This document shows positions 19,657 through 22,921 of a stretch of DNA of 64,000 nt, piece by piece. The position numbers and the translations under genes are program-made. A model generated the notes under the pieces. The model made no database searches. It was not told where the DNA came from and saw nothing but the letters and a program-made list of their open reading frames with translations. Where the stretch lies: assembly GCA_003215315.1 (NCBI GenBank), contig QCKO01000001.1, forward strand, positions 62,001 to 126,000, given 5' to 3'. Position 1 is the first letter of the stretch. Every line of letters starts with the position of its first letter. This stretch comes from Prochlorococcus sp. AG-409-P19 (lineage in GTDB: Bacteria; Cyanobacteriota; Cyanobacteriia; PCC-6307; Cyanobiaceae).

Positions 19657-20934
19657 TCAATCTTGATTATTCTTCTCGTTAGGAATATCAGAAGTGAACT
19701 GAGGCTTAACGAGTCTAGGTGAAGGGGCCTGTCCTGAGATTGTTCTCATCCATCGGTTTCTGGCTATTTCATATAAAAAAATGGATGTAGCAACAGAAGC
19801 ATTAAGACTAGTCGTGACACCTCTCAATGGAATACGAACAAGATGATCACAAACTCTTCTTGTAATAAGAGAAATCCCTTTGGCCTCAGAGCCAGTAACT
19901 ACGACTAATGGGCCATGCGAATCAACTTCAGGCAAAGTCATATCTCCTTCTTCTGCAAGTCCGATAACTGAATAACCATTATTTTTTAGCTGTTCTAGTG
20001 ATCTATTTAGGTTTACAACCCTGGCCACAGGCAGGTGCTCCAATGCTCCTGCTGCTACTTTGGCAACTGATCCAGTAAGTCCAGCACTTCTTCGTTGAGG
20101 CAAAACCAAACCATGAGCTCCTAGAGCCTCAGCAGACCTAACAATTGATCCTAAATTTTGTGGATCAGTTAAACCATCCAAAGCTAGTAAAATTGAAGAA
20201 TCTCCTAAAGGCTTGCAGGCTTTTATAAGTTTGCTCAATTCAAGCGTTTTGGTTGCAGCAATCTGAAGCACAATTCCTTGATGAACAGCACCCTTAGTTA
20301 ATTGTCCTAATCTCGACCAAGAAACTTCTTCAATTAATACTCCAGAAGATTTCGAATCCTTTAAAAGTTGAAAGAACTTTGATGTACTTCTCAATTCTGT
20401 AGTGCACCAGATTCTATGTATTGGCCTACCACTTTTTAAAGCTGCTTCAGTAGCATGTCTACCCCATAGCAAATCATCCGGAACAGAACTAGAAAAGCTC
20501 ACACTACTAGAACTTGATCCAATTTCATTTCTATATTCGTGATTATAATTATTTAATTGATTATTCTTTTGATATCTATAGTTAAAATCACCTTTTTTTA
20601 AAGATAAACCTTCTTGATAGTTATTAGATTTTAGAGGCTTATTTTGATAGTTCCTTGAATTATGTTTTTCAGAATATTCATGCCTAACTTCATTTTCTAT
20701 ACCTTTTATATTATTTCCTCTTCTATTACCTAGATAGTTTATGGTATCACGTTTTAAATTAAAATCTTTTCTATTAGATCCATTTTCCGCTCTACGAGTA
20801 TTTCTAAAATCAGATTGTTTTGGACCTCGTACTTGTTTAGAAGATCTATAATCTAAACCATTGGAATTTCCTCTTCTTTTACCCGTTGAAGAATTAGAAG
20901 AAGATCTCTGATTTTTATTAAGGCGATAACTCAT
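19657..20934 (-). CDS. rlmB: TrmH/SpoU-family 23S rRNA 2'-O-methyltransferase (RlmB-like)
   Basis: Transfers a methyl group to a ribose 2'-OH of 23S rRNA (G2251 for RlmB). The C-terminal 260 residues have an N-terminal substrate-binding domain (LLWGRHATEAAL) and the three SpoU motifs: LDGLTDPQNLGSIVRSAEA, VTGSEAKGIS and IPLRGVTTSLNASVATSI. The first about 150 residues are a low-complexity extension rich in Asn, Arg, Ser, Tyr and Lys with no fold evident. It is followed upstream by the Mini-III gene, so the pair looks like an rRNA-maturation unit. Confidence 0.9.
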   Translation of the reverse strand: MSYRLNKNQRSSSNSSTGKRRGNSNGLDYRSSKQVRGPKQSDFRNTRRAENGSNRKDFNLKRDTINYLGNRRGNNIKGIENEVRHEYSEKHNSRNYQNKPLKSNNYQEGLSLKKGDFNYRYQKNNQLNNYNHEYRNEIGSSSSSVSFSSSVPDDLLWGRHATEAALKSGRPIHRIWCTTELRSTSKFFQLLKDSKSSGVLIEEVSWSRLGQLTKGAVHQGIVLQIAATKTLELSKLIKACKPLGDSSILLALDGLTDPQNLGSIVRSAEALGAHGLVLPQRRSAGLTGSVAKVAAGALEHLPVARVVNLNRSLEQLKNNGYSVIGLAEEGDMTLPEVDSHGPLVVVTGSEAKGISLITRRVCDHLVRIPLRGVTTSLNASVATSIFLYEIARNRWMRTISGQAPSPRLVKPQFTSDIPNEKNNQD

Positions 20935-20945
20935 TGTTTTTAAAA

Positions 20946-21353
20946 CTATTTAATACCTTTAGATTCCTGGTCAAGTAGATCAAACAAGTCAGCCAGACGT
21001 TGTGGATCACTTAAAAAAAGCCAACCAACAATTGTTTCGAATCCAGTTGCCATAGCATAGGTGGCTGCGTCCCCATTCTTAGGCGCTCTTCCAGCTTTGT
21101 TTCTTCCACGCCTTACCAAATCCTTTTCTAAATCTGATAAGTGTGGCTGCAAATCTTTTATTGCTTGTGCTTGAGCTCTGGCCTGAACCTCTGAAACAAC
21201 AGCATTATGAAGGAATTTAGATCTGGCAGGTCTTTTTGAATATCTCATTCTTTGATGCAATTCCCAAACAGCATCTCCCAACCAAGCCAATTGTAATGGC
21301 CCTAAAACATCAGGATCTCCTGATGTTTCCATGCAGCGAATCCAATTAGTCAA
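20946..21353 (-). CDS. mrnC: Mini-ribonuclease III
   Basis: Dimeric RNase III-type catalytic domain without a dsRNA-binding domain; in other bacteria it trims 23S rRNA ends. Evidence: LAWLGDAVWELHQRMR (catalytic Asp helix), NAVVSEVQARAQAQ, and VRRGRNKAG...DAATYAMATGFETIVGWLFL with the second acidic pair. 135 residues, family-typical. The start is a TTG at 21353 overlapping the STAS stop codon (TTGA), so translation is coupled. Confidence 0.92.
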   Translation of the reverse strand: MTNWIRCMETSGDPDVLGPLQLAWLGDAVWELHQRMRYSKRPARSKFLHNAVVSEVQARAQAQAIKDLQPHLSDLEKDLVRRGRNKAGRAPKNGDAATYAMATGFETIVGWLFLSDPQRLADLFDLLDQESKGIK

Positions 21354-21715
21354 GCCGCCAATTTATTTAAAGCTGTAGCCAAGTCTGGTGCCAAATGGAG
21401 AAATTCTTCAAGTCGAACCAACTTAATAGTCTGAATAACTCTTGCATTCCCAACCACTAAAAAAGAACGTTTACCTTTATTGCATTCCTTAGCGGCCTGT
21501 ACCATAGCGCCAAGACCAGACGAATCAATAAAGTCAATGTTTGATAGATCAATGACTACTGAGAGTGAATTCGAAGCAAGAACTTCATTGATATACGAAG
21601 TGAATTGCTTTTCTGAATATGCATCAAGTTGTCCAGTAAAATGAAAAACCAAACAATTCTGCTGGTTCTCAAACCCACCCCTTAAAGAAACGGTAAGTCG
21701 TTGTAAATCGTTTAT
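21350..21715 (-). CDS. STAS-domain protein (anti-sigma factor antagonist-like)
   Basis: The STAS fold is clear: LVFHFTGQLDAYSEKQF, VVIDLSNIDFIDSSGLGAMV with the phosphorylatable Ser pair, and a final helix. The first canonical start in frame (TTG at 21652) falls inside beta-strand 1. Coding similarity continues upstream as NDLQRLTVSLRGGFENQQN, back to an ATA at 21713-21715 with GGGGGG eight bases before it; a TAG stops the frame further up. I place the start at this ATA, giving 121 residues, with reservation. The partner kinase or sigma factor is not in the window. Confidence 0.75.
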   Translation of the reverse strand: MNDLQRLTVSLRGGFENQQNCLVFHFTGQLDAYSEKQFTSYINEVLASNSLSVVIDLSNIDFIDSSGLGAMVQAAKECNKGKRSFLVVGNARVIQTIKLVRLEEFLHLAPDLATALNKLAA

Positions 21716-21766
21716 GGGAATAACCCCCCAATACTTCTAGCTTGAAGTGTAGTTATAGAAATCAAA

Positions 21767-22921
21767 CTAAACCACGCTTCTTCGTCGTTCTTCCATCAAG
21801 TCAACAAATCGTTGAAAATGATAATCGGCATCATGAGGACCTGGACTAGCTTCTGGATGATATTGAACCCCAAAAAAAGGAAGATTTCTTCCTTCAATTG
21901 CTGCAACAGTATTGTCATTCAAATTGAAGTGAGTTATTTGAACTTTATCTTTTGGTAATGAATCTGGATCTAAAGCAAAGCCATGGTTTTGACTTGTTAT
22001 CTCAACTTTTCCTGATGTTCCACAAGGATGATTCAACCCACGATGTCCATAAGGCAACTTGAATGTTTTACCACCTAAACCTAAACCTAAAATTTGATGA
22101 CCTAAACAAATTCCAAAGATTGGTGTAGTCGCATCATTTATCAAATCCCTAACTAATTTTATTCCTTCAATTACAGTTGAGGGGTCACCTGGACCATTAG
22201 AAAGGAATACACCTTCCGGATTAATGCGTTTCAATTCATCATAATTAATATCTGATGGAACAACTGTAATATCACATCCATAAGAAGTTAATCGATTCAA
22301 TATTGACCTTTTTATACCAAAATCGACAGCTACAATATTATAAGGTTTTACGGTATTTTGCTTAATCCTTTGATCAAATAAAATGGGACTAATTTTATTC
22401 CATTTATAATTTACTTTTGTTGAAACCTTTGAAACCAAATTCAAACCATTCATTGAAGGGGATTCTTTTAAAATCTCCAAAAGTTGCTTAATAGAATAAT
22501 TCCCATCCGTTGAGATAACAGCATTTAAAGTTCCCGCATCACGAAGACTGAAGACCAAAGATCTAGTATCTATACCTGATAAACCAATAACCTTCTGATC
22601 TATTAACCAATCTTCAAAAGAAGATTCACTTCTCCAATTACTTGGTATAGAAGTAAATTGACGGACCACAATGCCCTTTACAACTGACGAGTCAGACTCT
22701 TGATCATTAATATTTACCCCAGTATTTCCAATTTCAGGGAAAGTAAAGGTGACTAGTTGTCCATAATAACTTGGGTCAGTAAGAACTTCCTGGTAACCTG
22801 TCATTCCAGTATTAAAAACGACCTCACCTATCACAGTCCCAACATAACCGAAAGAAAAACCTTCAAATAATAATCCATTTTCAAGTAATAATATTCCTTT
22901 TTTATCTGAAGATGAATACAT
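21767..22921 (-). CDS. carA: carbamoyl-phosphate synthase small subunit
   Basis: Glutamine amidotransferase subunit that feeds ammonia to CarB for carbamoyl phosphate, used for arginine and pyrimidines. Class I GATase triad: Cys near residue 272 in FGICLGHQILG, and His and Glu in QYHPEASPGPHD near 355. The N-terminal CarA-specific domain has FNTGMTGYQEVLTDPSY. 384 residues, full length. carB is not in the window. Confidence 0.96.
   Translation of the reverse strand: MYSSSDKKGILLLENGLLFEGFSFGYVGTVIGEVVFNTGMTGYQEVLTDPSYYGQLVTFTFPEIGNTGVNINDQESDSSVVKGIVVRQFTSIPSNWRSESSFEDWLIDQKVIGLSGIDTRSLVFSLRDAGTLNAVISTDGNYSIKQLLEILKESPSMNGLNLVSKVSTKVNYKWNKISPILFDQRIKQNTVKPYNIVAVDFGIKRSILNRLTSYGCDITVVPSDINYDELKRINPEGVFLSNGPGDPSTVIEGIKLVRDLINDATTPIFGICLGHQILGLGLGGKTFKLPYGHRGLNHPCGTSGKVEITSQNHGFALDPDSLPKDKVQITHFNLNDNTVAAIEGRNLPFFGVQYHPEASPGPHDADYHFQRFVDLMEERRRSVV

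Follow-up and report, generated by a model that had tools for sequence, protein, structure and literature searches.

Start codons other than ATG, GTG and TTG are rare; in a comparison of 36 genome triplets, one of 61,358 ancestral AUG starts was reported to have become AUU (PMC5622118). The closest described systems in which such a codon is used are infC and sigR. infC starts with AUU in E. coli and with ATC in Streptomyces, and is autoregulated by IF3 (PMC5472188). In Streptomyces, sigR starts with GTC in 32 of 34 species and with GTT in the remaining two, the start codon being preceded by AGGAGGTG. IF3 represses sigR from the GTC start; SigR is over-produced when the codon is canonical, and mutants affected in IF3 dosage or fidelity have an altered level of SigR (PMC5472188).

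In Synechocystis, Ssr1600 was reported to bind Slr1861, which is a kinase and anti-sigma factor, and the phosphomimetic S59/S60 form of Ssr1600 not to bind it (PMC12329169). It was argued that the Ssr1600:Slr1861 ratio decides how much RNAP-SigC forms; moreover, loss of Ssr1600 rescues an rpoZ mutant in high CO2, and under the same condition the control strain grows more slowly if additional Ssr1600 is supplied; the dosage of this protein is critical (PMC12329169). The same paper from 2025 states that Ssr1600 has a TTG initiation codon, which was changed to ATG for over-expression (PMC12329169).

The window analysed here is a stretch of 64,000 nucleotides from Prochlorococcus sp. AG-409-P19. 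It contains a STAS gene and neighbouring features at the following positions of the window:

21767 to 22921, minus strand: upstream neighbour, which we take from its sequence to be carA; a homologous neighbour is present in most loci
21737 to 21739, minus strand: in-frame TAG stop, read from the sequence, that ends the open frame ahead of the start
21724 to 21729, minus strand: Shine-Dalgarno-like GGGGGG, 8 bases ahead of the ATA
21713 to 21715, minus strand: ATA, the proposed non-canonical start codon (ATH, i.e. ATT, ATA or ATC, in relatives); the homologous codon is ATH in 217 of 218 loci and CTG in one
21350 to 21715, minus strand: STAS-domain anti-anti-sigma factor, Ssr1600 orthologue, 121 residues including the start (Pfam, NCBIfam, AlphaFold2, Foldseek)
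21650 to 21652, minus strand: TTG, the first canonical in-frame codon, residue 22; judged from sequence, alignment and model not to be the start, as it would remove beta-strand 1
21515 to 21526, minus strand: DSSG motif, residues 64-67, invariant in a 34-row alignment; numbering offset of 6
20946 to 21332, minus strand: downstream neighbour, a ribonuclease III-domain gene (Mini-III-like, here called mrnC; Pfam PF00636, 84.8 bits; synteny)
19657 to 20934, minus strand: next gene downstream, presumably an RlmB-like rRNA methyltransferase gene

From the TAG at 21739-21737, the minus strand reads AAG TAT TGG GGG GTT ATT CCC ATA AAC GAT TTA CAA. There is no canonical codon between the TAG and the ATA, and the next ATG, GTG or TTG downstream is the TTG at 21652-21650. 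An earlier, sequence-only reading of this DNA had noted an ATA at 21713-21715, 8 bases after GGGGGG, and the lack of ATG, GTG and TTG from the in-frame stop to 21652; both are confirmed by the codon-by-codon reading of the minus strand. It had given the span as 21350-21766, of which 21350-21715 is the coding part, whereas the rest includes the in-frame stop. Its further claim, that a TTG start would cut off the first STAS strand, agrees with the predicted structure: counting ATA as residue 1, strand 1 comprises residues 11-18 and strand 2 residues 21-30 of an AlphaFold2 model, and the TTG is residue 22.

The protein scores above the curated cut-off of Pfam PF01740 (STAS; 72.7 bits versus 22.6) and passes that of NCBIfam TIGR00377 (anti-sigma antagonist; 69.9 bits versus 53.45). 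The AlphaFold2 model was calculated from a 34-row alignment, i.e. the window copy and 33 sequences chosen from the 80 contig-scan loci described below, and has a mean pLDDT of 93; Foldseek matched it to TM1442, SpoIIAA and RsfB (1vc1, 1til and 8ih8), as expected for a SpoIIAA fold. D64, S65, S66 and G67 are invariant across the 34 rows, and a putatively phosphorylatable serine is present. The serines of this DSSG motif are the equivalents of Ssr1600 S59 and S60, which are the targets of phosphorylation by Slr1861 in Synechocystis.

Based on sequence comparison, we conclude that the STAS gene is the orthologue of the gene for Synechocystis Ssr1600, the anti-SigC antagonist. One match per genome was detected in 138 of 292 phylum genomes, carA and mrnC are the neighbours, and the published C-terminal antigen of Ssr1600 (PMC12329169), minus its leading coupling cysteine, is the exact C terminus of two relatives (L170 and L171). 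Moreover, Ssr1600 residues L24, G43, S59, S60, D25, R33, D58, L62 and G63 fit the residues of another relative (L254) after adding 6; on this alignment, residue 1 of the published protein corresponds to conserved-frame residue 7. An RsbW-like kinase domain (PF13581) was found in 60 of 61 family genomes, the exception being the genome of the window itself, which is 67% complete. In this organism, the partner of the STAS protein would be a Slr1861-like kinase.

The start site was compared in two sets of loci, which overlap in species. In the contig-scan set, for which 80 of 104 related loci were kept, the homologous codon is ATA in 51, ATC in 24 and ATT in 5. The phylum set was obtained by searching 292 phylum genomes at E 1e-10; 138 genomes, including that of the window, have a relative, and all 138 loci, from 29 family codes and 67 genera, were read. 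Here, the codon is ATT in 93 loci, ATA in 27, ATC in 17 and CTG in 1. ATG, GTG and TTG were found in neither set. Joining the sets, ATT, ATA or ATC is present in 217 of 218 orthologous loci of the class Cyanobacteriia while the remaining one has CTG; therefore, the shared codon class is more than chance. In two of these loci (L113 and L194), insertions of three codons and one codon, respectively, required that the codon be placed by hand, and in both it is ATT at the usual distance from the Shine-Dalgarno. A single genome of the same class (G105) had no listed match in the 292-genome search. The sole CTG (L124, genome G151) lies behind AAGGAGGT. Single-gene trees require at least 14 codon changes for the 138 rows and at least 19 on the joint tree of all rows, and none of these is to ATG.

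Whole genomes were also scanned with degenerate patterns of the conserved N terminus, the loci themselves not being read, so that genomes matching neither pattern have either diverged from it or lack the gene on the available contigs. In the family scan, 312 of 390 genomes match with an HTN first codon and, among the matches listed, this codon is always ATA, ATC or ATT; the same pattern with ATG, GTG or TTG as first codon matched 0 of the 390. In the class scan, the ATH form was found in 260 of 378 genomes and the ATG, GTG or TTG form in 1 of 378. The single genome found to have ATG at exactly this codon is G753 (L284; G753:C1:22062-22099, minus strand), in which it lies behind GGGAGG; two genomes of the same family code have ATA and ATT at the site behind AGGAGG. 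As judged from these sequences, the ATG of G753 marks the codon as a start position and shows that ATG has been tolerated at least once; with ATG in one complete-looking genome, the rare codon is apparently not indispensable. G753 is a naturally occurring comparison by which the effect of the start codon can be judged.

The site is preceded by a strong and well-spaced Shine-Dalgarno. At least five contiguous bases matching the anti-Shine-Dalgarno are present in 115 of the 138 phylum-set loci; by the same measure, carA reaches this in 1 of 59 loci and mrnC in 4 of 87 when the nearest canonical start is taken, and in 4 of 59 and 21 of 87, respectively, with the best-scoring start. GGAGG lies ahead of the site in 107 of 137 phylum-set loci. 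The strict measure was passed by 14 of 80 loci of the contig-scan (marine) set, and a Shine-Dalgarno-like 4-mer was present in 79 of 80. Unlike most of the rest of the class, the marine picocyanobacterial clade often has a G run (GGGG to GGGGGG) in place of AGGAGG. Immediately ahead of the ATH codon, at -2 and -1, only pyrimidines (TT, CC, TC or CT) are present in 207 of 217 loci, which is stricter than at carA starts. A hairpin hiding the Shine-Dalgarno, with GGGG pairing with the CCC before the codon, was considered and rejected, as none of six folded sequences was clearly more stable than its shuffles (z between -0.07 and +1.82). For a known RNA element, positions 21200-22200 of the window were compared with Rfam, and nothing matched with an E value of 1 or better.

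We propose an explanation that, on the comparative sequence evidence, we regard as probable as a whole. The STAS gene would have an AUH-type non-AUG start (AUA here; AUU, AUC or AUA in relatives) that is read by the ordinary initiator tRNA, and the strong Shine-Dalgarno would help this tRNA to recognise the AUH codon. Selection across the cyanobacteria would hold the codon away from AUG, most likely because IF3 discriminates against AUH, so that output of the antagonist would be throttled and depend on IF3 activity. Since the ratio of the antagonist to the anti-sigma kinase would set the level of free alternative sigma factor, the codon would define the resting point of the switch. The observed codons (AUU, AUA, AUC and one CUG) include none of the three that are said to be tolerated by IF3 and, together with the sigR precedent, therefore suggest that initiation is IF3-limited; by analogy, IF3 would be the discriminating factor. 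The weak codon probably limits how much antagonist is made and couples its synthesis to the translation machinery, and expression of the STAS gene is expected to be low.

The codon might in addition have served as a sensor of the translation state since the cyanobacterial common ancestor, i.e. a fall in IF3 or in free 30S would give more antagonist, capture of the kinase and release of the growth-limiting sigma factor. We advance this extension tentatively and think it rather unlikely. If it were true, the initiation machinery would directly gate sigma-factor choice, and the IF3-sensitive AUH codon, which in other bacteria is on infC, would here be on a transcription switch. The competing possibility is that AUH lowers initiation by a constant factor and that IF3 or the state of the ribosome never varies enough to signal, which is compatible with the start-codon part of our proposal and to which we give slightly less than an even chance. 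Weak conserved codons with a strong Shine-Dalgarno are as consistent with a set point as with a sensor and, in Streptomyces, a stress-dependent change at the sigR GTC codon could not be demonstrated (PMC5472188). However, an ATG with a weak Shine-Dalgarno would give a constant low rate too, and an unusually strong Shine-Dalgarno with a lasting AUH codon is what an IF3-dependent site needs; neither of these two points is decisive.

Both the IF3-throttled start that we favour and a constant throttle place initiation at the ATH codon. It would instead occur within the frame, at a canonical codon (TTG or GTG), if the start annotated for Synechocystis ssr1600 were followed; this TTG is named in PMC12329169, and the over-expressed construct made from it is active. 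Therefore, the protein can function there without its first six residues. We nevertheless consider an internal start very improbable. In the 217 loci used for this count, from which the window copy was left out, the distance from the site to the next canonical codon downstream ranges from 3 to 144 codons, and this codon has no common position. In five genomes of the Synechocystis genus code, the published TTG position is TTG in three, CTG in one and CTA in one, whereas the proposed start is ATT in all five, and PCC 6803 itself would be expected to have ATT as well. In the window, the TTG would delete the predicted strand 1, the residues ahead of it are under coding constraint, and the strong Shine-Dalgarno precedes the ATH codon instead.

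Alternatively, ATH could be an internal isoleucine, which all three ATH codons encode, in a frame that ribosomes enter from an upstream start, through a frameshift or through coupling to carA. In many loci, the gene on the upstream side is carA, and 74 of 217 loci (the window copy again left out) have a canonical codon at some point of the open frame ahead of the site; by contrast, the stretch from the stop to the site lacks a canonical codon in 143 of 217 loci, and in 100 of 217 an in-frame stop lies at most 10 codons upstream of the site. In 135 aligned loci of the class, mean entropy at codon positions 1, 2 and 3 is 1.62, 1.57 and 1.53 upstream, and 0.82, 0.66 and 1.51 in codons 2-8; the values for the 80 contig-scan loci are 1.48, 1.32 and 1.01 upstream, and 0.51, 0.20 and 1.23 in codons 2-8. 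Judged by these profiles, a coding pattern is absent upstream, and codon periodicity begins exactly at the ATH site. Upstream, only the Shine-Dalgarno and the two pyrimidines are strongly fixed. Moreover, the site is CTG in one lineage and ATG in another. Coupling to carA was rejected because the distance varies too much, with the carA stop from about 50 to more than 1000 bases from the site, some short or negative distances being artefacts of alignments that run past the carA stop, as shown for the six loci examined. We regard an internal isoleucine as even less probable than an internal canonical start.

A local artefact, whether a read error or an ATG-to-ATA change that arose recently in this genome, the latter having been offered by the sequence-only reading as an expression-lowering alternative, is refuted by the tally and has next to no probability: nothing was found in its favour, and ATA, ATC or ATT is present at the same codon in relatives across the class, therefore the state is not a local mutation or a read error. 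Rather, the comparison indicates that the non-canonical codon is old and maintained. That orthologues might start at the TTG position, which would have spoken against AUA initiation, did not hold in the aligned loci. In total, the evidence, which is comparative throughout, strongly supports the ATH codon as the start of the STAS gene, and the finding is larger than the earlier reading supposed in being near class-wide rather than confined to one genome.

carA and the RNase III-domain gene flank the STAS gene in 110 of 110 loci of the contig-scan set and L081-L110. Among L152-L219, each of the two genes was found in 51 of 68 loci; for the 40 loci L112-L151, for which little downstream sequence was fetched, carA was found in 22 and the RNase gene in 6. 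Because Prochlorococcus queries were used in these searches, divergent neighbours were missed. The order in which the STAS gene lies between carA and the RNase III-domain gene, followed by the rRNA methyltransferase-like gene (19657-22921), is widely kept in cyanobacteria, and the link of the STAS gene to genes of ribosome maturation could be either meaningful or fortuitous. Viral relatives of the STAS gene were searched for and none was found.

A non-canonical start is not a general habit of cyanobacterial STAS genes, as 10 of 10 short paralogues from three genomes carry ATG or GTG either close to the point where the domain begins or upstream of it. Similarly, infC does not seem to share the habit: cyanobacterial infC has a canonical start at most 20 codons from a conserved motif in 18 of 20 loci, the other two not being located by the motif. 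Several infC frames (L220-L247) read ATA ATG CCT GTG, i.e. two canonical candidates lie two codons apart, and in some lineages there is GTG alone.

That a regulator of growth and photosynthesis genes has kept a non-AUG start throughout a class strongly argues for selection in favour of poor initiation. The start of Ssr1600, a protein that is being actively studied, would be corrected accordingly, and gene finders restricted to ATG, GTG and TTG are predicted to mis-start the STAS gene. With this codon, it could also be tested in a simple way whether the fidelity of translation has a feedback effect on cyanobacterial sigma-factor choice. In the open-licence literature, searched apart from supplements, we found no earlier report of a non-canonical start for ssr1600 or its orthologues; similarly, the gene is absent from the text, tables and figures aside, of a 2026 comment on a Synechocystis proteogenomic study (PMC13339759).

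The STAS protein has its fold and DSSG phosphorylation motif in common with the Bacillus anti-anti-sigma factors SpoIIAA and RsbV. It differs from Ssr1600 as published in its start: the part of PMC12329169 considered here gives a TTG and does not mention an AUU six codons upstream, whereas we propose the AUH codon. With infC- and sigR-type genes, the STAS gene shares a conserved start codon other than ATG, GTG or TTG and a strong, well-spaced Shine-Dalgarno. The likeness to sigR extends to the details, i.e. a non-canonical start, an extended Shine-Dalgarno (AGGAGGTG in sigR), a gene of a stoichiometry-dependent sigma switch and a misannotated database start (PMC5472188). By contrast, sigR has GTC or GTT, encodes a sigma factor, has been reported with such a start only from Streptomyces and has had its IF3 dependence tested (PMC5472188), whereas the STAS gene has ATH, encodes an anti-anti-sigma factor, is class-wide and has a predicted IF3 dependence. 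Finally, infC of E. coli and Streptomyces resembles the STAS gene in having an AUH start codon maintained by selection; however, IF3 there controls its own gene (PMC5472188), while in cyanobacteria the AUH codon is on another gene.
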